Of a stretch of DNA of 64,000 bases, positions 7,814-18,587 are shown piece after piece; positions within the stretch are counted from its first letter, which is position 1, and the number at the start of each line of letters is the position of its first letter. The notes under the pieces were generated by a model that worked only from the letters and a program-made list of their open reading frames with translations, ran no database searches and was not told the DNA's origin. Position numbers and translations under genes: made by a program. Origin of the DNA: Methanomicrobiales archaeon (GTDB lineage Archaea; Halobacteriota; Methanomicrobia; Methanomicrobiales; Methanospirillaceae); assembly GCA_025350045.1 (NCBI GenBank), contig JANXYM010000012.1, forward strand, positions 1-64,000, in the 5' to 3' direction.

Positions 7814-8137
7814 ATCCGAAATCCTGTCATAGCACCGGGTTACACTATTTATACCGATAAAAACAGAGCGAAATGTCATTTTCTTGTTTTGTATTTTCAT
7901 TCATCACTAAATATGTTCTCTGGCTATAATCGTAGAAACATATATATCCCACATGCTGGTTATGTAATATTACTGGGGAAAGGAACGATCAGTACCTTAT
8001 GCCGAGGAAGGTTTTTTTAAAATCCAGCCTTCTCGTGGTTATCCTGCAAACCCTGTGATGACAGATTCGCGTAGGTGAACCAGTGGGTATGGTACCCGGG
8101 GTTTTGTCCCTTTTCTCAAAAGAGGGATCTGTCTATC
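7814..8137. other. Intergenic leader ahead of the GH57-glycogen synthase pair
   Basis: No gene. It holds a TATA-like element (7936-7948) and, downstream of it, a short inverted repeat GAAGG/CCTTC around 8003-8032 separated by an A/T-rich loop. If transcription starts about 25 bases after the TATA element, the amylase mRNA would have an unusually long leader of about 165 bases. Confidence 0.4.
7936..7948 (+). promoter_or_regulatory. Putative archaeal TATA box for GH57/glycogen synthase
   Basis: The sequence AACATATATATCC is the best TATA-like element between the sugar kinase stop and the GH57 start. It is called by eye. The distance to the start codon (about 190 bases) is long, so another promoter is possible. 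Confidence 0.4.
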
Positions 8138-9592
8138 ATGCCACCCATATGCATCGGGTTCGAAGTTCATCAGCCATACCGGTTGAACCGGCAGTTTGAA
8201 CCCGTACCAAAGATGAAGAAGAAAGATCTTTTTGATAATTATTTTGACGGTTTGAATAAGGAAATACTCGTGCGTGTAGCAGAAAAGTGTTACAATCCTG
8301 CCACAAAGATCATTTTGGAAAAGCTCGATGATGGATTTTCCTGCTCTTTTTCCTTGTCGGGCATTCTTATTGAGCAGCTGGAAAAGTGGAGCAAGGACAC
8401 CCTCTTACTCTTTGAACAGGTGGCACGGCATAAAAATAGTGAGATGATTGGGCAGACCTACTACCATAGTATCGCCAGTTGTTTTCATGATAAAACTGAA
8501 TTCAGAGAACAGGTCAGGCTTCACTCGGATCTGATGTATGATCAGTTTAAAGTAAGGCCTGTCATTTTTGAAAATACAGAATTCACCTTCAATAATGATG
8601 TAGCCGCTACCGCAAAAGATATGGATTTCTCAGGAATTTTTACCGAGGGTGTAGATCGTGTTCTCGGGTGGCGCAGCCCGAATCATCTTTACACCTGTAA
8701 GGGAATTCCGGTTCTTCTTCGCAACACCCGGTTTTCGGATGACATTGCATTCCGTTTTTCCAATCGTAGCTGGGACATGTATCCTCTTACGGCCGATATT
8801 TATGCCCAGTGGATAGCTGCATCTGAGGGAGATGTTGTCAATGTGTTCCTGGATTACGAAACCTTTGGTGAACACTTCTGGCAGGAAACAGGGATATTTG
8901 ACTTCATTAGTTCCCTGCCCCATGAACTTGCTGAACGTGGTGTGGAATCTATCTTGCCCTCAGATAGTATATCCCGTTTTTCCCCCGTTGGAGAAATTGA
9001 TGTCAGGGAGACTATTTCCTGGGCAGACCTTGAGAAAGATACATCTGCATGGATGGGAAATGATCGACAGAGGGCAGCGTTTCATGCAGTGCAGCTTGCA
9101 CGACCCTTTGCCATTGACAAACCGATCTGGCGATATCTCCAGACAAGTGATCATTTCTACTACATGGCCTCCAAATACGGTACGTGTGGCGAAGTCCACA
9201 CCTATTTCAGCCACCATGAGGCCGAGGATGCATTCAAAACATACATGAGGGTGCTGGCAGACTACGAATTGCGAAATATCCGCGTCATGAAAAACCGGAA
9301 ATCGGCCAAAACACTGCGAACACTTACTCCTGAGCAGGCATTTCATTTCGCAGGACCCTCAGGGTTTATCGGACATTCGGCCTATAACCTCAACCAGTTT
9401 GAAGAATTGTTATACATAGTGCCTAAGGATTCAATCCAGTTCCACCAGGAACGAGGCGACTTCTCACGCTGGATCACAGATATCCTCGAGGATCCACGTC
9501 TGGCAGAGAGTATTGCCGGGCTTACAGAACGTCATGACCTGGCCAGAATCATAAAAGAACGGAAGGACCTGCTGTGGAGTCACTTAAGATAG
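8138..9592 (+). CDS. GH57 family alpha-amylase-like glycoside hydrolase
   Basis: A 484-residue glycoside hydrolase family 57 protein, expected to act on alpha-glucans such as intracellular glycogen. It starts MPPICIGFEVHQPYRLNRQF, the usual GH57 opening, with HQP near residue 11. Region FENTEFTFNN probably carries the nucleophile Glu and LDYETFGEHF the second acidic region. I set the start at ATG 8138 because AGAGGGA lies about 10 bases upstream; an in-frame GTG at 8075 would add 21 residues not typical of the family. The C-terminal end overlaps the start of the glycosyltransferase gene by 19 bases, so the two are translated together. Archaeal genomes often pair this amylase with glycogen synthase. 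Confidence 0.88.
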   Translation: MPPICIGFEVHQPYRLNRQFEPVPKMKKKDLFDNYFDGLNKEILVRVAEKCYNPATKIILEKLDDGFSCSFSLSGILIEQLEKWSKDTLLLFEQVARHKNSEMIGQTYYHSIASCFHDKTEFREQVRLHSDLMYDQFKVRPVIFENTEFTFNNDVAATAKDMDFSGIFTEGVDRVLGWRSPNHLYTCKGIPVLLRNTRFSDDIAFRFSNRSWDMYPLTADIYAQWIAASEGDVVNVFLDYETFGEHFWQETGIFDFISSLPHELAERGVESILPSDSISRFSPVGEIDVRETISWADLEKDTSAWMGNDRQRAAFHAVQLARPFAIDKPIWRYLQTSDHFYYMASKYGTCGEVHTYFSHHEAEDAFKTYMRVLADYELRNIRVMKNRKSAKTLRTLTPEQAFHFAGPSGFIGHSAYNLNQFEELLYIVPKDSIQFHQERGDFSRWITDILEDPRLAESIAGLTERHDLARIIKERKDLLWSHLR

Positions 9593-10716
9593 CCTTTTTC
9601 TGCTGGGAATCAATGTACGCGGAACGGGTTGGCGGACTTGCCGCTGCTGCCACAAATCTTGCAGAAACATTAGTAAAACAGCAGCATGAGGTGCATTTTT
9701 TTACCCGGGGAACAATGCCGGATCAAGCTATCAATGGTGTATACTACCACTATTGCCAGCCAGCAGGAAAAAATATTGTAGAATATTGCGATGCCATGAG
9801 CAGAGCGATGGTGGAGCAGTTCGGGAAACATGATGCACCCGACCGGTTTGATATTCTTCATTTTCATGACTGGCACGTAGTTCAGGCACTCCATTACCAG
9901 CAGGACAGGAATACCATTTTCACCTACCACTCAACGGAATATGGCAGGAATGGCAACCAGTTTGGAGAGTGGTGGGAGTTCAAGGAGATCTCCGGAAAGG
10001 AGTGGTACGGCGGGCTTATTGCAAAACGTGTGACTGCTGTATCAGCAACCTTGAAAAATGAAGTGATGCAGTTATACAATATTCCTGATGGTAAATGCGA
10101 TGTCATTCCAAACGGAGTTGTCCCCCGCGAATACCACACAAATATCGACCCGGGTGAAGTGAAACAGGCATATGGGATTCATCCGTTTGCCCCTCTTGTC
10201 CTGTTTGTCGGCAGGCTTGTCTACCAGAAAGGACCGGATTTGTTCATAGAGGCGATACGCAAAGTCTGCCAGAACCACTGGGATGCAAAAGTGATCATTG
10301 CCGGAGAAGGAGGTATGCGGAAGTTCCTGCAGGAACACGCAAAAGATCTTCCGATAAACTTTGTTGGGTATATCCCCGACTCAGAGTATATCCGAATTTT
10401 GAATGCTGCAGATATTGTAGTAATCCCCAGTCGCAATGAACCGTTTGGTCTTGTGCTGCTCGAGGCATGGAGTGCTGAAAAATGTGTTGTTGCCTGTAAT
10501 GTCGGTGGTCTCTCTGAGAACATCGAAGCTTTTGTAAACGGGGTAAAAGTAGAGGTGAACCCGGATTCCATTGCCTGGGGTATTGCTACCATGATTGACG
10601 AACCCTGGAATGCTGAAGCCCTGGGAAAACGGGGGAGAAAAAAAGTGGATCGGCTTTTTCTCTGGGGTCCGATAGTAAAAGGGCTGACCAACACGTATGC
10701 CCGTACTGTTTCTTAG
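9574..10716 (+). CDS. glgA: Glycogen synthase-like glycosyltransferase
   Basis: A 380-residue GT-B glycosyltransferase, most likely the enzyme that extends glycogen from a nucleotide-activated glucose. The N-terminal half has the glycine-rich acceptor loop (ERVGGLAAAATNLAE). The C-terminal half has GRLVYQKGPDLFIEAIRKV and the donor-binding motif PSRNEPFGLVLLEAWS with the two conserved Glu residues. Translation starts at GTG 9574 inside the end of the GH57 gene, behind GGAAGGA, indicating translational coupling. It is shorter than bacterial GlgA (about 480 residues) and resembles the archaeal form next to GH57. ADP-glucose versus UDP-glucose preference cannot be read from the sequence. Confidence 0.88.
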   Translation: MESLKIAFFCWESMYAERVGGLAAAATNLAETLVKQQHEVHFFTRGTMPDQAINGVYYHYCQPAGKNIVEYCDAMSRAMVEQFGKHDAPDRFDILHFHDWHVVQALHYQQDRNTIFTYHSTEYGRNGNQFGEWWEFKEISGKEWYGGLIAKRVTAVSATLKNEVMQLYNIPDGKCDVIPNGVVPREYHTNIDPGEVKQAYGIHPFAPLVLFVGRLVYQKGPDLFIEAIRKVCQNHWDAKVIIAGEGGMRKFLQEHAKDLPINFVGYIPDSEYIRILNAADIVVIPSRNEPFGLVLLEAWSAEKCVVACNVGGLSENIEAFVNGVKVEVNPDSIAWGIATMIDEPWNAEALGKRGRKKVDRLFLWGPIVKGLTNTYARTVS

Positions 10717-11172
10717 ACAATGGTCTCCTTACTGTTTTGGAGGAGGAGTGCAGGTATTGGGTGGGTTAACCCCAAAAATGAGAATTGGTGCCCGATTCCC
10801 CCAAATATAATAAACCCCGCCGTACCAAAACCACAATCCTGCAGGGGTAATAAAAAATTCCTTCCGGCAGTACCTCAGAGAGACTCTGATGCGGAAAACC
10901 CCTTTTTTATAACCTTCTTACTCTTGTTTTACAGAGAATAACTTTGAACGGGGTATCGTATTGACCCGTGCCCCCTTTTTCTAATCTTGAACCTGAGTTG
11001 TCTCACTATCTTGGTGAGGGACATTATGTTTTCATGCATTACTTCGGCTTTCCAAGGGAGAACTTGTTGTGTTGGTATTGCAAACCGATTAAATGGATCG
11101 GCACTATTACTGAACTAAGTGGGAAATGCAGTATGGTTTTTACCAGATGCAATCACCATACAGGAAATACGG
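10717..11172. other. Intergenic region, nothing identified
   Basis: About 455 bases between glycogen synthase and phosphoribulokinase. Short open frames are present but have no ribosome binding sites and no protein-like composition. The gap suggests phosphoribulokinase has its own promoter, but I could not pick out a clear TATA element. Confidence 0.5.
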
Positions 11173-12135
11173 ATGGATCATAAGAATTTTAAAGATACGA
11201 TTGCCGCATCCCCGTATATTTTTACCTTGGGTGTTGCCGGAGACAGCGGTTCTGGAAAGACTACGTTTACACAGGGTGTGCGGAGCATATTTGGCACTGA
11301 TCTTGTCTCTACCATCACGCTTGACGATTATCACAGTCTTGACCGGGATGAACGCAGGGAACAGGGCATTACAGCCTTGAATCCGAAGGCAAACCGTATT
11401 GATCAGCTCGAGCTGGATCTCATCACGCTCAAACGAGGGGTTCCGGTAGACAAACCGTCCTACAACCATACCACAGGCACTTTTGACCCTCCCGCTATCT
11501 TTCGTCCAAAAAAAATCCTCATACTTGAAGGACTTCACACGTTATTCACTCCCACACTGCGCAAATATCTTGATTTTACTCTATTTGTAGATCCTGCAAA
11601 GCAGGTGAAGTATGACTGGAAGATCTTAAGAGATGTAGACCAGCGGGGGTATTCCCGCGATGCAGTCCTCCAGGAAATTGCAGAACGGGAACCGGAATAT
11701 GAACGTTATATCGCTCCCCAGAAAGAGTACGCCGATGCTGTGATAGGTATCGATTATTCCCGGTACGGAAGGCAGTTCGGCAAAGAACGGAACGTTTACA
11801 AGGTCACCCTCTCCCAGAACCGGATGAAGCAGAGTATTGAAAATATCGACCTCTCATTAGACCTGTATTCCATCCTTTCGTTGTCTGAACGAAATTTCTC
11901 TTTGGAGTTTGTGACAAGTCTTCATGATGGCCATAAGATGGGGGAGCTTATTATTGATGGGGAACTGAGCGAGCATGTGGTGAAAAAACTCGAGCATAGT
12001 ATTGAAGAGCAGACCGGGGTTCATCCCATCTCCATTTTCAAAGACAGAAACTACGTTAACGCTGGCGATCTTGTCCAACTTATTCTCTGCTGGCGCATTA
12101 TCCATCGCCGCATTTTCATGGAAACCTGCAGGTAA
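11173..12135 (+). CDS. prk: Phosphoribulokinase
   Basis: A 320-residue P-loop kinase of the phosphoribulokinase/uridine kinase family. The Walker A motif GDSGSGKTTF is at about residue 21. It is followed by LDDYHSLDR with the catalytic Asp, a substrate-binding region with KPSYNHTTGTFDPP, and ILEGLHTLF. This arrangement, and the C-terminal extension beyond uridine kinase length, agree with phosphoribulokinase, which makes ribulose 1,5-bisphosphate. A functional archaeal enzyme is known from Methanospirillum, where it was proposed to work with RuBisCO in a reductive hexulose phosphate pathway. RuBisCO is not in this window. Start ATG 11173 (MDHKNF) is chosen because it gives the normal N-terminus. 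The gene lies between glycogen synthase and PfkA. Confidence 0.88.
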   Translation: MDHKNFKDTIAASPYIFTLGVAGDSGSGKTTFTQGVRSIFGTDLVSTITLDDYHSLDRDERREQGITALNPKANRIDQLELDLITLKRGVPVDKPSYNHTTGTFDPPAIFRPKKILILEGLHTLFTPTLRKYLDFTLFVDPAKQVKYDWKILRDVDQRGYSRDAVLQEIAEREPEYERYIAPQKEYADAVIGIDYSRYGRQFGKERNVYKVTLSQNRMKQSIENIDLSLDLYSILSLSERNFSLEFVTSLHDGHKMGELIIDGELSEHVVKKLEHSIEEQTGVHPISIFKDRNYVNAGDLVQLILCWRIIHRRIFMETCR

Positions 12136-12208
12136 TGCCACTCATAATGATACTTGCATACAAAAAGACCATAACCTGTGAATGAAAAGGAAAGAGTAGG
12201 AGCGATCA

Positions 12209-12235
12209 ATGAAAACAGGGGTTGTTTGGGAATGA
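12209..12235 (+). CDS. Possible 8-codon leader peptide overlapping the pfkA start
   Basis: ATG at 12209 is preceded six bases upstream by a strong site (AGGAG, 12198-12202) and encodes MKTGVVWE. It stops at TGA 12233-12235, which overlaps the pfkA ATG (12232) as ATGA. The pfkA start itself has only a weak site, so ribosomes may load on the leader and reinitiate. The leader resembles the PfkA N-terminus (MKTIGVL), so it may instead be a partial duplication of the start region. Confidence 0.4.
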   Translation: MKTGVVWE

Positions 12236-13272
12236 AAACCATTGGTGTCCTGACCGGGGGTGGGGACTGCCCCGGGCTTAACGCGGTAATCCGGGCTGTG
12301 GAGAGAGCGGGTGTAAAATATGATTTTGCAACCCTTGGAATCCGGAACGGGTGGCAGGGACTCATTGATGGCGATGTCGAACCGCTCACCGATTTCTCGG
12401 TATCAGGTATCCTGCCAAAAGGGGGGACGATTCTCGGTACATCCCGCACTAACCCTCTGAAAAATCCTTCGGATTTACAGAAGATCAAGGCCAATATAAA
12501 AAAATACGGAATTCATGCTCTCGTAGTCATTGGAGGCGACGGTACCCTTTCTGCTGCCCGCGATGTGGTAAAGCAGGGAGTCTCCATTGTGGGAATACCC
12601 AAAACCATAGACAATGACATCTGCGGAACCGATATGACGTTCGGTTTTGATACTGCTGTTTCGACGGTAACCGAAGCGATCGACCGGCTCCATACTACGG
12701 CAGAGTCGCACCATCGGATCATCGTTGTTGAGGTAATGGGAAGAAATGTAGGGTGGATTGCGGTCATGGCAGGTATTGCCGGAGGAGCTGACGAGATCCT
12801 GATCCCGGAAGTGCATTTTACCCTGGACGCGGTCTGTAAAAAATTAAAGGCCCGGTATGATACAGGGAAAAAATTCTCGATTGTTGTTATCGCGGAAGGA
12901 GCTCATGAAAAAGATCTTGGTCTCTCATCAGTTCCCGAAAACGAACGGGATGAATGCGGTCACGAGAAGTTTGTAGGTGTGGGAAATATTTTAGGAAAAG
13001 AACTGGAACGCCGCCTCGGTATAGAGACCAGAGTCACCATTCTCGGGCATGTCCAGCGGGGAGGATCGCCAACTGCGTATGACCGTATTCTTGCCACCCG
13101 GTTCGGTGTTGCCGCTGTCCAGCTCGTACATGCAGGTGATTTCGGGAAGATGGTTGCCCTGCAGGGAAACCGGATCACCAGCATTTCTCTTGAAACAGCG
13201 GTCAACCAGTTAAAAACCGTTGACGCAGACTTCTATGAACTGGCTATGACGGTGATTGGGGGTCGTAAATGA
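12232..13272 (+). CDS. pfkA: 6-phosphofructokinase, PfkA family (ATP/PPi mixed group)
   Basis: A 346-residue classical phosphofructokinase, making fructose 1,6-bisphosphate. From MKTIGVLTGGGDCPGLN the numbering runs in register with the E. coli enzyme. GGDGT places Gly at 104 (as in ATP-using enzymes), while PKTIDND has Lys at 124 (as in PPi-using ones). This combination belongs to the mixed-substrate group, so the donor cannot be settled by eye. MGRNVGW and RGGSPTAYDR are the other conserved segments. I start at ATG 12232; an in-frame GTG at 12178 adds 18 residues with no family support. The stop overlaps the pgi start as ATGA. PfkA-type enzymes are uncommon in archaea, so horizontal acquisition is plausible. 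Confidence 0.92.
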   Translation: MKTIGVLTGGGDCPGLNAVIRAVERAGVKYDFATLGIRNGWQGLIDGDVEPLTDFSVSGILPKGGTILGTSRTNPLKNPSDLQKIKANIKKYGIHALVVIGGDGTLSAARDVVKQGVSIVGIPKTIDNDICGTDMTFGFDTAVSTVTEAIDRLHTTAESHHRIIVVEVMGRNVGWIAVMAGIAGGADEILIPEVHFTLDAVCKKLKARYDTGKKFSIVVIAEGAHEKDLGLSSVPENERDECGHEKFVGVGNILGKELERRLGIETRVTILGHVQRGGSPTAYDRILATRFGVAAVQLVHAGDFGKMVALQGNRITSISLETAVNQLKTVDADFYELAMTVIGGRK

Positions 13273-14027
13273 ACAGAAATTTCTCCTCTCAATCAAATAG
13301 GCCCCCCAAACCGGCATGTACGGTCTGCTGGAGAGGACCGTTGCCTGAACCTGCGGTTAGAACCGCTGAAGATCTCAGGAGTGTTCTGGCAAATCCCGGA
13401 TGTACCTGCACAGGACCGGTATATTACATGTACCGGGATGTCGCCCGAACACCTGGTGACCGTACCTGGCTGGTGTCACAGAAGTTACGATTTGATATCA
13501 CGGTAATTCCCCCGCGTGAACTCTGTGGGGAGTACAATAAAACAAAAGGACATTATCACCCTGCTGACCCTTCCGGTACCGGCTACCCGGAGATATACGA
13601 AGTCCTTGCCGGAGAGGCACATTACCTGATCCAGAACAAGGATTGTTCCGATATTGTCATGATTGCGGCATGTACCGGGGATGTCGTTGTAGTTCCCCCG
13701 GCATATGGGCATGTGACCATCAACCCTTCCCGTTCAGCTGTCCTCCAGATGGCAAACATTGTCTCCTCCCGGTTTTCCAGCAATTATCACGGTTATGAAG
13801 CGCAGAATGGGGCTGCATATTTTGAGTGGATACAAGAAGGGTTTGTAAAGAACCCGACCTACCGGAGCCCCGCGCGTCTCCGTCTCGTAAAAGCGCAGCG
13901 CCTTGTGGATGTCAGGGATGCTATTCCCGACCCGCTCTATAACCTCATTGAAAACCGGGCCCCGGTCCTTGAGTTTCTGAATCATCCGGAAAAGTTTGAA
14001 TCGTTATTCCAGGAACTGTATCCGTAA
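13269..14027 (+). CDS. pgi: Glucose-6-phosphate isomerase, archaeal cupin type
   Basis: A 252-residue protein of the cupin phosphoglucose isomerase family, interconverting glucose 6-phosphate and fructose 6-phosphate with a bound metal. The metal-binding cupin motif is visible as KGHYHPADP, then GYPEIYEVLAGEAHYLIQ, and VVVPPAYGHVTINPS, supplying His, His, Glu and His ligands. It has about 60 residues more than the 190-residue Pyrococcus enzyme, spread over both ends, including a Cys-containing N-terminus. The ATG overlaps the pfkA stop (ATGA), so expression is coupled to PfkA, the next enzyme in the pathway. It is convergent with malQ seven bases later. Confidence 0.92.
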   Translation: MNRNFSSQSNRPPKPACTVCWRGPLPEPAVRTAEDLRSVLANPGCTCTGPVYYMYRDVARTPGDRTWLVSQKLRFDITVIPPRELCGEYNKTKGHYHPADPSGTGYPEIYEVLAGEAHYLIQNKDCSDIVMIAACTGDVVVVPPAYGHVTINPSRSAVLQMANIVSSRFSSNYHGYEAQNGAAYFEWIQEGFVKNPTYRSPARLRLVKAQRLVDVRDAIPDPLYNLIENRAPVLEFLNHPEKFESLFQELYP

Positions 14028-14034
14028 ATTTTTT

Positions 14035-15534
14035 TTAGGTTCTGCCAAAAATCCGTGTCATTTCTGCAAGATTCCTGCTTACGAATGGATCGATCTGGTT
14101 TCTTTTCATCTGCCATTGCCAGTTACCCTTGTCAGTTCCCGGAATATTCATACGGGATTTGCCCCCCAGTCCGAGAATATCCTGCATGGGAAGGATTGTT
14201 GTATCCGCAACTGACATCATGGCAAGCCGGATAATTTCTGCAGGTAATTTTTCTGCAGTGATTTCCCTCCCCATGTAGGTTACGAGTCTCTTTTTCTCTT
14301 CTGGGGAGGCATCCGATTCGAGCCACCCCCGGGTGGTAGCATTGTCATGCGTGCCGGTATACAGCACGCAGTTTCGTTTCATATTATGCGGGGCATGCGG
14401 ACTTGTTGACGGATCACTTGTGAATGCAAAGAGAATCACGCGCATGCCAGGAAGACCAAACCTGTCAATAAGCTCAGATACATCAGGTGTAATAATGCCA
14501 AGATCTTCTGCAATAAGGGGAAGATCTGCAAACCGGTTTTTCATAACGGTTAATAATTTTTGACCAGGTGCCGTGACCCATCTTCCGTTTATTGCATTTC
14601 TTTCTCCCGCTGCAACTTCCCAGTACGCGACAAATCCCCGGAAGTGATCGATTCTCGTATAATCAAAAAAAGCCAGATTATGCTCCAAACGTTTAATCCA
14701 CCAGGAAAATCCCTCTTTCTCATGTTCTTCCCATCTATAGAGCGGGTTTTTCCAGAGCTGCCCGGTTTTGCTGAAATAGTCCGGAGGTACTCCTGCCACA
14801 ACCATTGGCCGAAGTCTTTCGTCGAGCTGGAACAACGCCGGGTGTGTCCAGACATCAGCACTGTGATAATGAACGTAAATCGGGATATCCCCAATCAGGC
14901 TGATACCTTTTTTCCTGGAGTATTCCCGCAGCTCCTGCCACTGTTGGTAGAAAAGATACTGGAGAAATTTTTCCTTATCTATCTTCATTTTTAAAGATTG
15001 TCGCATTGCATCCAGTGCAGAGGGCTCGCGATTTTTTATTTCATCCGGCCAGTTGCTCCATAAGCTGCCCTTATACTGCTGATCTAATGATGTAAATAGG
15101 GCAAAATCCTCAAGCCACCATGAGTTATTCCTGCAAAAATCGTAAAAATCAGGAAGATCAGTTTTTTCTTGGATGAATCTGTCATAGGCAAGAGAAAAAA
15201 TTCGTTCCTTGAACCGGGCAACAGCATTAAAATCCACAGTGCCGCAGGGAAAATCCGGTACTGTGTCTATATCGTTTTTTCTCAAAAAACCGCCCTTTAC
15301 CATACATTCGGGACTTATGAGATGGGTATTGAACGCAAAGGCAGATGTACTATGATAGGGAGAATTATCAGATTCCAGACTGGTGGGATTCAATGGTAGT
15401 ACCTGCCAGTAACTCTGTTGTGCATCAGAAAGGAAATCCACAAACCGGCAGGCACAGGGTCCGAGATCCCCAATGCCGTATTGGGAAAAAAGAGACGTGA
15501 TATGTAAAAGGACTCCGCTCCCTCTTCGTTTCAC
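14035..15534 (-). CDS. malQ: 4-alpha-glucanotransferase (amylomaltase), GH77
   Basis: A 499-residue GH77 enzyme that transfers alpha-1,4 glucan segments between oligosaccharides, producing chains that phosphorylase can use. The N-terminus MKRRGSGVLLHITSLFSQYGIGDLG is typical. The catalytic residues lie in YTRIDHFRGF (Asp nucleophile), AEDLGIITPDV (Glu acid/base) and GTHDNATTRGW (stabilising Asp). The length is that of bacterial amylomaltase. Translation begins at GTG 15534 behind GGGGGA. It is followed, in the same leftward direction, by nothing until the pgi gene, which it faces. Confidence 0.95.
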   Translation of the reverse strand: MKRRGSGVLLHITSLFSQYGIGDLGPCACRFVDFLSDAQQSYWQVLPLNPTSLESDNSPYHSTSAFAFNTHLISPECMVKGGFLRKNDIDTVPDFPCGTVDFNAVARFKERIFSLAYDRFIQEKTDLPDFYDFCRNNSWWLEDFALFTSLDQQYKGSLWSNWPDEIKNREPSALDAMRQSLKMKIDKEKFLQYLFYQQWQELREYSRKKGISLIGDIPIYVHYHSADVWTHPALFQLDERLRPMVVAGVPPDYFSKTGQLWKNPLYRWEEHEKEGFSWWIKRLEHNLAFFDYTRIDHFRGFVAYWEVAAGERNAINGRWVTAPGQKLLTVMKNRFADLPLIAEDLGIITPDVSELIDRFGLPGMRVILFAFTSDPSTSPHAPHNMKRNCVLYTGTHDNATTRGWLESDASPEEKKRLVTYMGREITAEKLPAEIIRLAMMSVADTTILPMQDILGLGGKSRMNIPGTDKGNWQWQMKRNQIDPFVSRNLAEMTRIFGRT

Positions 15535-15622
15535 ACAAAGTCCCCCGTTTTCATCCCGGACCGGCTAAAAAGTTTGATCTGTTTATCAAAGATTGCTGCC
15601 AAAACCCATCTGCTACAGCGCA

Positions 15623-18127
15623 TCATGAGAATTTCACTCCGAGGTATCCACCCAGTTCCTCAAATAATCTGATCCATTGCCGTGCATGGGCATCTCCGGA
15701 TCCTGAAAGCAGCTGCAAATCCATTGCTTTTTTTCTGCCTATGAAGAAATAGTCATTCTGGGATTCCCAAAGATTATATTTGAGTAAAAGTGGTGACAAA
15801 ACCCTAAATATTGTAGCAATCTTCTCCATAAGAAGAATATCGTCGGGGTGTTCTAAAAGAAGCTTCATGTGGTTCGTTATTGCAATACTTGCAGTAAAAT
15901 TCAGTGTTGAAGTATCCGGCTCGAATTTCCCTTTGGTCATTTCATCAACCAGAATTGCAAGTCGTTGTGTATCGAGATTACCATTTGAAAGAATTTTCTT
16001 GAGATCAAGATTGATAATATACCAGACCGGATCCTCAAGCACTTTTGGCGGAGGTATCTGCATCTCTTTCATGGCATGGAGAAGCGGAAAAAACTGGTTG
16101 TAAATATGCCGGAATGAAGACTCCATCTCTGCAAGTGTGGAGTTCAGAATTGAGTACAGTACTTTTCGCTGTCCATCCCGGAAAAGGTCCCAGAGTGAAT
16201 AGAAACGATTGCCATAGTGATGCTCAAGGATACGAATCATCCGGGGGATATCGCTGTTTAAAAAAGCATCCTGTAATTCATCCCGCATGGAAAAATATGC
16301 CAGATCTCCGGGAAATTCTGTTGCACCACCCATAAAATTCTGATTTCCCAGATGAAGCACGGCAAACATCAGGGTATTTTCTTCCCAGGTGATATCGGAA
16401 TACAAAAAGACCTTCCCAATGGCGATTTTGAGTTCGCCTGATTCTGACCTATGGTACTCCTCATTTTTCAGGGTATAATTTTTTATCCGGATATTTTCCG
16501 GGGAATCAACAATTAACGATGATAATGCATAGTGAAAACCTACCCGGGAGAGATCAACTACAGATGTCTGAACAAAATTCCGGTACACCTGTGCCCCGTC
16601 TTTATAATCCGGAACATTACTGGGGGCATTTTTCAGAATGAAAATAAAATCCGGTTCAGGATCAATCCCTGCCACTTCCCGCACAAGCTGCATTGCGCGG
16701 CAGGCGTATCGTAGTACCTGGACTGATTCTATGCCGGAAATGTCTTCAAAAAACCATCCGCAGCTGGTATACATGAGCATACCATTCCGCTGGATCTCAA
16801 GCAGTTTGAGTACTTCGATTTTCTCGGTGTCCGACAGTGTCCGGGTAGCGTGTTTTGAGAAGAATAATTCGATGTTCTGGACAGACCGGTCCAGGATGAT
16901 ATCAATATAATCATCCCGTGCCTGCCAGGGATTGGTTACGAATGCGTTCATACGGTCATTAAAAAGTGATATCAGTGTCTGGCGGAGCCAGTCCATGGCT
17001 TCCCGAAGGGAGGACCGCCATTTCTGTCGTGAGGCCAATGCACAACTCTGGACTGGGATGGCCCGATCCCGTGCTGTCGAATGGACAAATGGATTGGATG
17101 CGGTCATCTGGACAAGGGTGCCGGTGTTACAGCACCCACAGTCCGATCTCCAGCGTTCTACCCCGTGAATGCAGCTCCATGAAGTATTTTCGAGTATTTC
17201 GACCTGATGGGCAGGGGGATTTTTACTTAAATATTCTCCATAAATGGTAATCCGGGCAAGATTTTTGGATTCAATCAGGTAGAGGGCATACGCAAGCGCC
17301 ATATCCCCAAACCGGTGATGATGCCCGTAGGTTTCCCCATCGGACGCAATAGTTAACAGCCCGGACTGTTTCTGGTACTGGGAAAAAAAACGGATCATCC
17401 GATTAGCAAACACTTCGCCATTTTCCAGGAGATTGGAAAACGCGATCTCCTGGGAAATACCCTCATCATAAAAAAAGATGGCAATCGATTCGCCGGATGG
17501 CAACTGGCAGAGGTATGGCATGGAAGTATCAATACTCCCCCGGCTCACATCGGTCCATTGTTGATCATTGACCGGTTTTATACGACTGGCCTGTTTTGGA
17601 GAGAGAATGGTAAATTTTATCTTCTGTTCTGCAAGGATCTCTAAAGTCTCGGTGTCAACCGCCGTCTCAGGCAGCCACATACCTTCGGGCTCCCTTCCGA
17701 ACCGGGATTTGAAATCCTTAATTCCCCAGATCACCTGAGTTCGTTTGTCCCTGCTGTTTGCGAGGGGCATAATAATATGGTTGTACACCTGGGCAATGGC
17801 TGAACCATGCCCGGAGAAACGGTTCATGCTCTCTTTATCCGCATCGAGAATCGCCCGGTAGACCTCCTTTTTGTTCTGTTCCAGCCAGGCAAGCAGGGTA
17901 GGGCCGAAATTGTAACTTATCTTTGCATAATTATTGACGATATCGATGATCTTTTTATCCGGATCGAGGATACGGGAAGCCGCATTAGGTGCATAACATT
18001 CAGCAGTGATGCGTTCATTCCAGTCATGATAGGGATATGCAGAATCCTCAGTCTCAACTTCCTCAAGCCAGGGATTTTCACGGGGTGGTTGGTAAAAATG
18101 GCCATGTATACAGACAAAACGACTCAT
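15623..18127 (-). CDS. Large GH57 glycoside hydrolase with C-terminal DUF3536-like region
   Basis: An 834-residue GH57 protein. The N-terminal catalytic part starts MSRFVCIHGHFYQPPRENPW. It contains the acidic segment EGMWLPETAVD and the conserved SDGETYGHHH. The long C-terminal half is alpha-helical in composition and corresponds to the extra domain found in long GH57 proteins of uncertain specificity. The likely role is alpha-glucan cleavage, rearrangement or branching, inferred from family and location. I use ATG 18127 because AAGGATGG lies just before it and MSRFVCIHGHFYQPP is the standard family start; upstream codons add eight residues. It lies 88 bp upstream of malQ on the same strand, and the two may form one transcript. 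Confidence 0.85.
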   Translation of the reverse strand: MSRFVCIHGHFYQPPRENPWLEEVETEDSAYPYHDWNERITAECYAPNAASRILDPDKKIIDIVNNYAKISYNFGPTLLAWLEQNKKEVYRAILDADKESMNRFSGHGSAIAQVYNHIIMPLANSRDKRTQVIWGIKDFKSRFGREPEGMWLPETAVDTETLEILAEQKIKFTILSPKQASRIKPVNDQQWTDVSRGSIDTSMPYLCQLPSGESIAIFFYDEGISQEIAFSNLLENGEVFANRMIRFFSQYQKQSGLLTIASDGETYGHHHRFGDMALAYALYLIESKNLARITIYGEYLSKNPPAHQVEILENTSWSCIHGVERWRSDCGCCNTGTLVQMTASNPFVHSTARDRAIPVQSCALASRQKWRSSLREAMDWLRQTLISLFNDRMNAFVTNPWQARDDYIDIILDRSVQNIELFFSKHATRTLSDTEKIEVLKLLEIQRNGMLMYTSCGWFFEDISGIESVQVLRYACRAMQLVREVAGIDPEPDFIFILKNAPSNVPDYKDGAQVYRNFVQTSVVDLSRVGFHYALSSLIVDSPENIRIKNYTLKNEEYHRSESGELKIAIGKVFLYSDITWEENTLMFAVLHLGNQNFMGGATEFPGDLAYFSMRDELQDAFLNSDIPRMIRILEHHYGNRFYSLWDLFRDGQRKVLYSILNSTLAEMESSFRHIYNQFFPLLHAMKEMQIPPPKVLEDPVWYIINLDLKKILSNGNLDTQRLAILVDEMTKGKFEPDTSTLNFTASIAITNHMKLLLEHPDDILLMEKIATIFRVLSPLLLKYNLWESQNDYFFIGRKKAMDLQLLSGSGDAHARQWIRLFEELGGYLGVKFS

Positions 18128-18587
18128 ACTTCCATCCTTGATAAAGAACAACCTGATCCCACTGCCGGTTTTTCAACTATCCACCCATTCTCTTTTTTAC
18201 CAGATAATAATCTTCCGAACGGGACTGTATTTGGCGTTTTTATGAGTGTATGATTTCTCTGGATTGGCACGTGACATTTCAAAAAATGGTCCCTCCAAAA
18301 GCACAGCATCCGGCCCAATGATGCGTCTTATTAAGAAAAAGTCCTAGTAACGCTATTGATGTTCCCCTGCACTGGCATCTGTTGAGGGCACAATGGGGCA
18401 ATATGGGGTACTCTGTCAGTCATAACCCCCCTCCCCGAACTCAATCCCTGTTGGGGTGTTCATCATATTTTAGAGGTATGGGAGCACGAACCCCCATCTC
18501 GTAATTTTCCCGATATCCGGATAGCCATTTTAAAACGGTAACGAGTAAAAAAAAGGCAGTGTAATGCCATAACCGGAGTAAAAAAAA
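18128..18587. other. Intergenic region, nothing identified
   Basis: About 460 bases between the GH57 start and the end of a small leftward gene. The base composition is mixed, with several C/G runs around 18425-18500 but no hairpin long enough to call. No open frame has both a ribosome binding site and a protein-like translation. Confidence 0.5.

Follow-up and report, generated by a model that had tools for sequence, protein, structure and literature searches.

Probable remnant of a lost aldolase gene as a putative translational leader of pfkA in a Methanomicrobiales archaeon

In the window analysed here, a stretch of 64,000 nucleotides from a Methanomicrobiales archaeon (contig JANXYM010000012.1 of assembly GCA_025350045.1), the start codon of pfkA is overlapped by the stop codon of an eight-codon open reading frame (ORF). 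Taken as a whole, this ORF is probably best understood as the scar of a deleted aldolase gene which acts as a termination-reinitiation leader for pfkA. Ribosomes would still load at the old aldolase ribosome-binding site, translate the few remaining leader codons, halt at the TGA and immediately reinitiate at the pfkA ATG overlapped by it, with the help of the motif CAGGGG, while the leader peptide itself would be without function.

Leader ORF and start of pfkA

The window genome (G000) is an assembly of 2.53 Mb in 121 contigs. The genes of interest follow each other in the order phosphoribulokinase (PRK), eight-codon ORF, pfkA and cupin-type phosphoglucose isomerase (Table 1). Both pfkA and PRK are housed in a sugar/glycogen cluster (8075–18151) together with two GH57 proteins, a glycosyltransferase and a 4-alpha-glucanotransferase. 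The PRK frame extends to a GTG at 11119; the start at 11173 was picked by comparison with the PRK of L055. A further ATGA (13269–13272) unites the pfkA stop with the isomerase start, so that each of the three successive frames, leader, pfkA and isomerase, overlaps the next.

Table 1. Features around the pfkA start in the window; SD, Shine-Dalgarno sequence.
Feature	Position	Strand	Remarks
Phosphoribulokinase (PRK) gene, upstream	11173..12135	+	PF00485 E 7e-49; NCBIfam phosphoribulokinase; start set by L055 PRK N-terminus
Conserved stretch ahead of leader, very probably the 5' flank of the lost aldolase gene	12149..12193	+	89.2% mean pairwise identity in 7 clade species; putative promoter/5'UTR
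GTG, alternative in-frame upstream start of pfkA, rejected	12178..12180	+	SD −0.3 kcal/mol
SD of leader (GTAGGAG), very probably the former aldolase ribosome-binding site	12196..12202	+	AGGAG ahead of leader ATG in 7/7 clade species; not in L009
Eight-codon leader ORF MKTGVVWE, very probably an aldolase gene relic	12209..12235	+	34-codon form in relatives is longer by 78 nt
Likely 78-nt deletion junction	12209..12221	+	ATGAAA of start region brought next to pfkA SD region; relatives have partly similar motifs at a distance of 78 nt
CAGGGG, pfkA's own SD, 10 nt ahead of ATG	12216..12221	+	CAGGAG in several relatives; −6.3 kcal/mol
ATGA, overlap of pfkA start and leader stop	12232..12235	+	identical overlap in G008, G006, G012, G001
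pfkA, 346 aa, PFK_mixed subfamily	12232..13272	+	PF00365 E 4e-114; TIGR02483
Cupin-type glucose-6-phosphate isomerase	13269..14027	+	PF06560 E 5e-33; start on pfkA stop as ATGA

As had been proposed in a sequence-only reading of this DNA, the ORF is preceded by a strong SD, with AGGAG (12198–12202) separated by six bases from the ATG (12209–12211), and its TGA (12233–12235) overlaps the pfkA ATG (12232–12234). Calculated with a longer anti-SD sequence and scored up to the start codon, the leader site amounts to −10.8 kcal/mol and the pfkA site to −6.5 kcal/mol; scored over positions −20 to −4, the values are −6.2 and −6.3 kcal/mol, respectively. The anti-SD was taken from relatives since G000 yielded no match to the 16S-tail pattern, which is present in the other four of the five genomes checked. 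Among 36 hand-picked ORFs of the window, pfkA included, 21 match or exceed the leader site in strength and 17 are weaker than the site of pfkA itself, which sits inside the leader ORF. The latter site is thus mid-range, contrary to the earlier assertion that the pfkA ATG lacks a good one, and because its strength is ordinary, de novo initiation at pfkA could suffice.

The GTG at 12178, which had been entertained as the real start of pfkA, was rejected: it opens an in-frame extension in the window alone, stops interrupt the corresponding frame in six of six relatives, and the codon has no SD to speak of (Table 1).

By itself, the arrangement is not exceptional. When the 96-nt window spacer was subjected to 20,000 dinucleotide shuffles, 28.9% of the products had an ATG ORF with an ATGA overlap at its end and 5.4% one which also carries an SD core; therefore the bare observation is mildly unusual only, and its meaning comes from the relatives. 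ATG ORFs ending at +4 were found upstream of pfkA at 13 of 30 loci (120 nt searched, L016 being cut off at the gene), which is unremarkable when set against the 29% of shuffled window spacers.

Leader forms in related species

A PfkA match is present in 26 of the 39 genomes of the window's genus (G000–G038), fragments counted, and the upstream region can be aligned in seven close relatives with 90–95% PfkA protein identity. Four of these (G008, G006, G012 and G001, corresponding to L044, L045, L046 and L049) show the same TAGGAG and ATG, followed by a 34-codon ORF that ends as ATGA on the pfkA start; the window leader equals this form minus 78 nt, in frame. In G004 and G015 (L047, L048) one extra base makes the leader read in frame into pfkA, the pfkA ATG is replaced by ATT, and the pfkA SD reads CAGTAG. 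The fused frame opens just 9 nt before the leader ATG (−10.8 kcal/mol), which is the sole in-frame start with a good SD: the in-frame GTGs, one in each species at −39 and −66, score −5.0 and −4.7 kcal/mol and the ATT −2.9 kcal/mol. Because L047 and L048 retain no other good in-frame start, use of the leader start within the clade is indicated.

In the seventh close relative, G034 (L009), leader SD and frame are lost, and pfkA has a good site of its own (−9.1 kcal/mol). SD, ATG and open frame are kept in six of the seven other species of the group. The sister pair L050/L053 has no ATG at the leader start position (CTC and ACG, respectively).

These comparisons also bear on the suspicion that a one-base assembly or sequencing error has split a single longer pfkA frame. 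Leader and pfkA do share one frame in L047 and L048, where the joined form is real; however, the ATGA split is common to four other binned assemblies of related species, which makes an error in the window unlikely, and pfkA in the relatives begins at the same MKTIGVLTGGGD position. An artefact is accordingly judged very improbable.

Probable origin of the leader from an aldolase gene

Sequence comparison argues that the leader is very probably an eroded remnant of a PRK06852-type aldolase gene formerly situated between PRK and pfkA. In more distantly related Methanomicrobiales, a full aldolase gene (NCBIfam PRK06852, E 2e-157; Pfam DeoC) is located directly upstream of pfkA, as in L054, L055, L056 and L059. 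The order in L055 is PRK–aldolase–pfkA and that in the window PRK–leader–pfkA, with aldolase and leader in the same position; PRK C-terminal sequence also precedes the aldolase in L056 and L059, and none was seen within 300 nt in L054. As judged by comparing the match positions of both genes, full-length aldolase lies directly before pfkA in nine genomes (G049, G051, G054, G073, G078, G083, G088, G093 and G098). In G043, G046 and G050, whose PfkA matches are weaker, a full aldolase exists but does not precede pfkA in the same orientation.

In the genus of the window (39 genomes, G000–G038), no full-length PRK06852-type aldolase is seen. L054 and L055, which are titled Methanoregula and carry the gene, have 71% PfkA identity and match no entry of that genus set. 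Matches in G000 are limited to two distant aldolase paralogues (C64:70844–72114, E about 1e-14), which adjoin each other about 58 kb downstream, outside the window, and might provide aldolase activity in place of the lost PRK06852-type enzyme.

Remnants of the gene body are found in several relatives. G022 (L053) bears an aldolase relic covering residues 250–303 (E 1.6e-16) just upstream of pfkA. By eye, remnants can be recognized upstream of pfkA in both L050 and L053, as can, in several relatives, degraded aldolase C-termini where the old stop lay (MKIY..REP followed by the stop in L056). At the 5' end, leader SD and ATG occupy the positions of the aldolase SD and start in the alignment. The L046 leader aligns without gaps to residues 1–14 of the L059 aldolase (MKADEPISIPLDVP / MTGHQPLRIPLDVP), and for L046 and L049 alike the ungapped match comprises aldolase residues 1–14 (L059, L054) or 4–13 (L055, L056). 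Against the aldolases of L055, L056, L054 and L059, the L046 scores are reached by 0, 0, 10 and 1 of 1000 shuffles and those of L049 by 3, 0, 36 and 0. The fused leaders of L047 and L048 match the aldolase N-terminus more weakly, and the leader peptides of L044 and L045, taken alone, not significantly. The same is true of the window's own eight codons, which are too short to reveal homology; the link between leader and aldolase runs via the other relatives and the DNA alignment.

The 3' part of the leader would correspond to the aldolase–pfkA junction including the pfkA SD region. In the relatives, the two sites 78 nt apart agree at 12, 11, 11 and 6 of 22 positions (L045, L046, L049 and L044, respectively), which lends modest support to a repeat-mediated deletion as the cause of the 78-nt loss. 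An origin of this kind leaves little room for the view that the leader is a duplicated PfkA start region. The motif ATGAAAAC is indeed present at both starts, but the longer leaders open with MKAD or MKTD and the clearest of them align with the aldolase N-terminus, so that the first leader codons would derive from the lost aldolase start and the remaining ones, via deletion, from the pfkA junction and its SD. A duplication is therefore hardly credible.

A pfkA tree was calculated from 29 sequences, of which two were truncated to 280 codons. In this tree, the eight leader species and the pair L050+L053 (support 99) share a node with a support of 74; the eight-species group itself has a support of 68, and its internal nodes range from 55 to 69 except for L046+L047+L048 (99) and L047+L048 (97). 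The aldolase gene would have shrunk by internal deletions from about 306 codons via a longer relic to 34 codons and, by a further 78 nt, to the eight codons of the window, the order of the steps being inferred. Fusion of leader and pfkA presumably took place in the ancestor of L047 and L048.

Constraint on peptide and initiation site

Over the first 23 codons of L044, L046, L047, L048 and L049, the leader shows a pN/pS of 0.88 and change rates of 0.157, 0.196 and 0.183 at the three codon positions; L045 was excluded from this five-species set owing to its divergent leader body. For the four ATGA species, L045 included, pN/pS is 0.84. The corresponding values for pfkA are 0.056–0.066. Read in other frames, the leader stretches yield 0.94 and 0.38 (five species) or 0.83 and 0.76 (four species), so the measure is noisy here; leader ratios and codon-position rates thus give no sign of constraint on the peptide. 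This speaks against a regulatory leader peptide or a metabolite-sensing RNA attenuator, to which a short ORF with its own SD ahead of a glycolytic gene would otherwise point. An Rfam search of 11900–12600 returned no match up to E 1, and folding was not better than that of shuffles (z −0.45, −0.27, 0.61 and 2.16 for two window stretches and two relatives). Regulation of this type is barely conceivable.

The initiation region is better kept. Among the seven clade species, identity is 89.2% in the 45 nt from −60 to −16 ahead of the leader and 88.6% in SD plus spacer, compared with 72.8% in leader codons 1–25 and 64.7% at the third positions of the first 19 pfkA codons. A gapped alignment was used for the 45-nt flank, as the ungapped differences (31%, 52%) are spoiled by indels.

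Retention of the features was compared with neutral simulations on the pfkA tree, conditioned on the window SD and ATG and including L009, with a scale of 1.5 that matches the leader divergence. At this scale, SD and ATG are kept in at least six of the seven other species in 0.5% (root L046) and 1.0% (root L049) of the runs; when the open frame is required in addition, the figures fall to 0 of 1500 (root L046) and 0.1% (root L049). Unscaled branch lengths give 5.1% and 2.3% for SD plus ATG and 0.7% and 0.6% with the open frame added. Without L045, at a matched scale of 1.1, the value for SD plus ATG is 7.5% and that with the open frame 1.2%. Without L009, at scale 1.5, SD and ATG are kept in seven of seven in 0.13% of the runs and all features in 0 of 1500; the conclusions on retention rest on the simulations that include L009. 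Since the simulations comprise substitutions without indels, start from a root sequence that has the features by construction and cover few species, there is moderate support for the notion that SD, ATG and open frame are kept above neutral expectation; for SD and ATG alone it is weaker. Selection, if any, would thus seem to preserve initiation and an open path to pfkA and not the peptide.

Translational coupling or inert scar

Coupling at ATGA overlaps is described for archaea and bacteria in two studies (Huber et al. 2019, PMC6728339; 2023, PMC10666635). The later one reports coupling in both H. volcanii and E. coli for −4 overlaps; a distance of about 20 nt almost abolishes it, and the last 15 nt of the upstream gene are sufficient for it in E. 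coli (PMC10666635). An SD ahead of the second start is, according to the earlier one, of variable help and not essential (PMC6728339). The window has the −4 overlap and the SD within the upstream ORF that the published coupled pairs share. It differs from them in that the upstream ORF is an eight-codon relic instead of a functional gene and that coupling is predicted from sequence.

The putative translational coupling device put forward in the sequence-only reading agrees with the ATGA overlap and the presence of both SDs and is the best functional reading. From the sequence features we consider a coupling function of the leader for pfkA fairly likely. The main rival holds that the leader is an aldolase leftover without any role, pfkA being translated de novo from CAGGGG. 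It draws on the mid-range strength of pfkA's own site, the apparently unconstrained peptide, the loss of leader SD and frame in the close relative L009 and the comparable ORFs in 5.4% of the shuffled spacers. Coupling is further weakened by the missing leader ATG in L050/L053 and by the retention of SD and ATG alone, for which P is 0.075 without L045 and 0.023–0.051 at unscaled branch lengths with all species. Such an inert scar is nevertheless unlikely: pre-leader region and SD are better conserved than the leader body (89% versus 73%), the joint retention of SD, ATG and open frame exceeds neutral expectation, and the two fused relatives L047 and L048 are left without another good in-frame start.

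Relation to known systems

Short ORFs that deliver ribosomes to a neighbouring gene are known, both natural, as in MIRU elements, and engineered, as in the bicistronic design (BCD). The BCD leader cistron has an SD of its own. As in published BCDs, a short leader cistron is followed in the window by a target gene with a second-cistron SD (PMC5995908); the window leader, however, is natural, archaeal and not engineered. With mycobacterial MIRU elements coupled at −4 nt it shares a short ORF without protein role ending on the next start, but MIRUs arrive by insertion whereas the window leader would have arisen by deletion of a resident gene (PMC12548453). With respect to the intact PRK06852-family aldolase gene, start region and 3' end are homologous in the leaders and relics of the relatives, whereas the coding body is deleted in the leader and no enzyme is possible.

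What appears to be new, among the literature matches listed, is that a resident operon gene has been eroded to a leader with its stages preserved. Among the same matches, no paper deals with this locus or derives a coupled leader from gene loss; the one paper there that combines Methanoregula, phosphoribulokinase and phosphofructokinase (PMC5241800) contains nothing on pfkA in two passages, a reference and a figure legend.

As a tentative generalization, gene loss may leave behind a natural bicistronic leader, in which the ribosome-binding site of the deleted gene is captured by the downstream neighbour and initiation and frame are selected while the peptide is not. The Methanoregula relatives would then display a series from intact gene via long relic and 34-codon leader to eight-codon leader, with fusion into an N-terminal extension on a separate branch. 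The origins of natural coupled leader ORFs are seldom visible, and here several stages appear to coexist among related species. With these stages side by side, a peptide that appears neutral and an initiation site that is kept better, the idea of a deletion scar turned initiator is directly testable. The case also cautions against labelling such ORFs as leader peptides or frameshift errors.

Additional observations at other pfkA loci

A conserved ATATACC-plus-ATG motif at about −23 in relatives was considered as a promoter or second leader and rejected, as it corresponds to the last aldolase codons and the stop. In L009, L011, L050, L058 and L096, the ATG at −23 upstream of pfkA is made of one base and the old aldolase TGA and opens eight-codon ORFs that end on the pfkA start, with SDs of −4.0 to −7.3 kcal/mol. 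The pfkA frame of L060 (G027) terminates prematurely, with a protein match that falls into two overlapping pieces, possibly owing to an assembly gap or a frameshift. L106, on a contig titled Methanospirillum, contains part of a pfkA gene (match over 52 residues at 85% identity), on whose start an eight-codon ORF ends; misbinning or transfer is a possible explanation.
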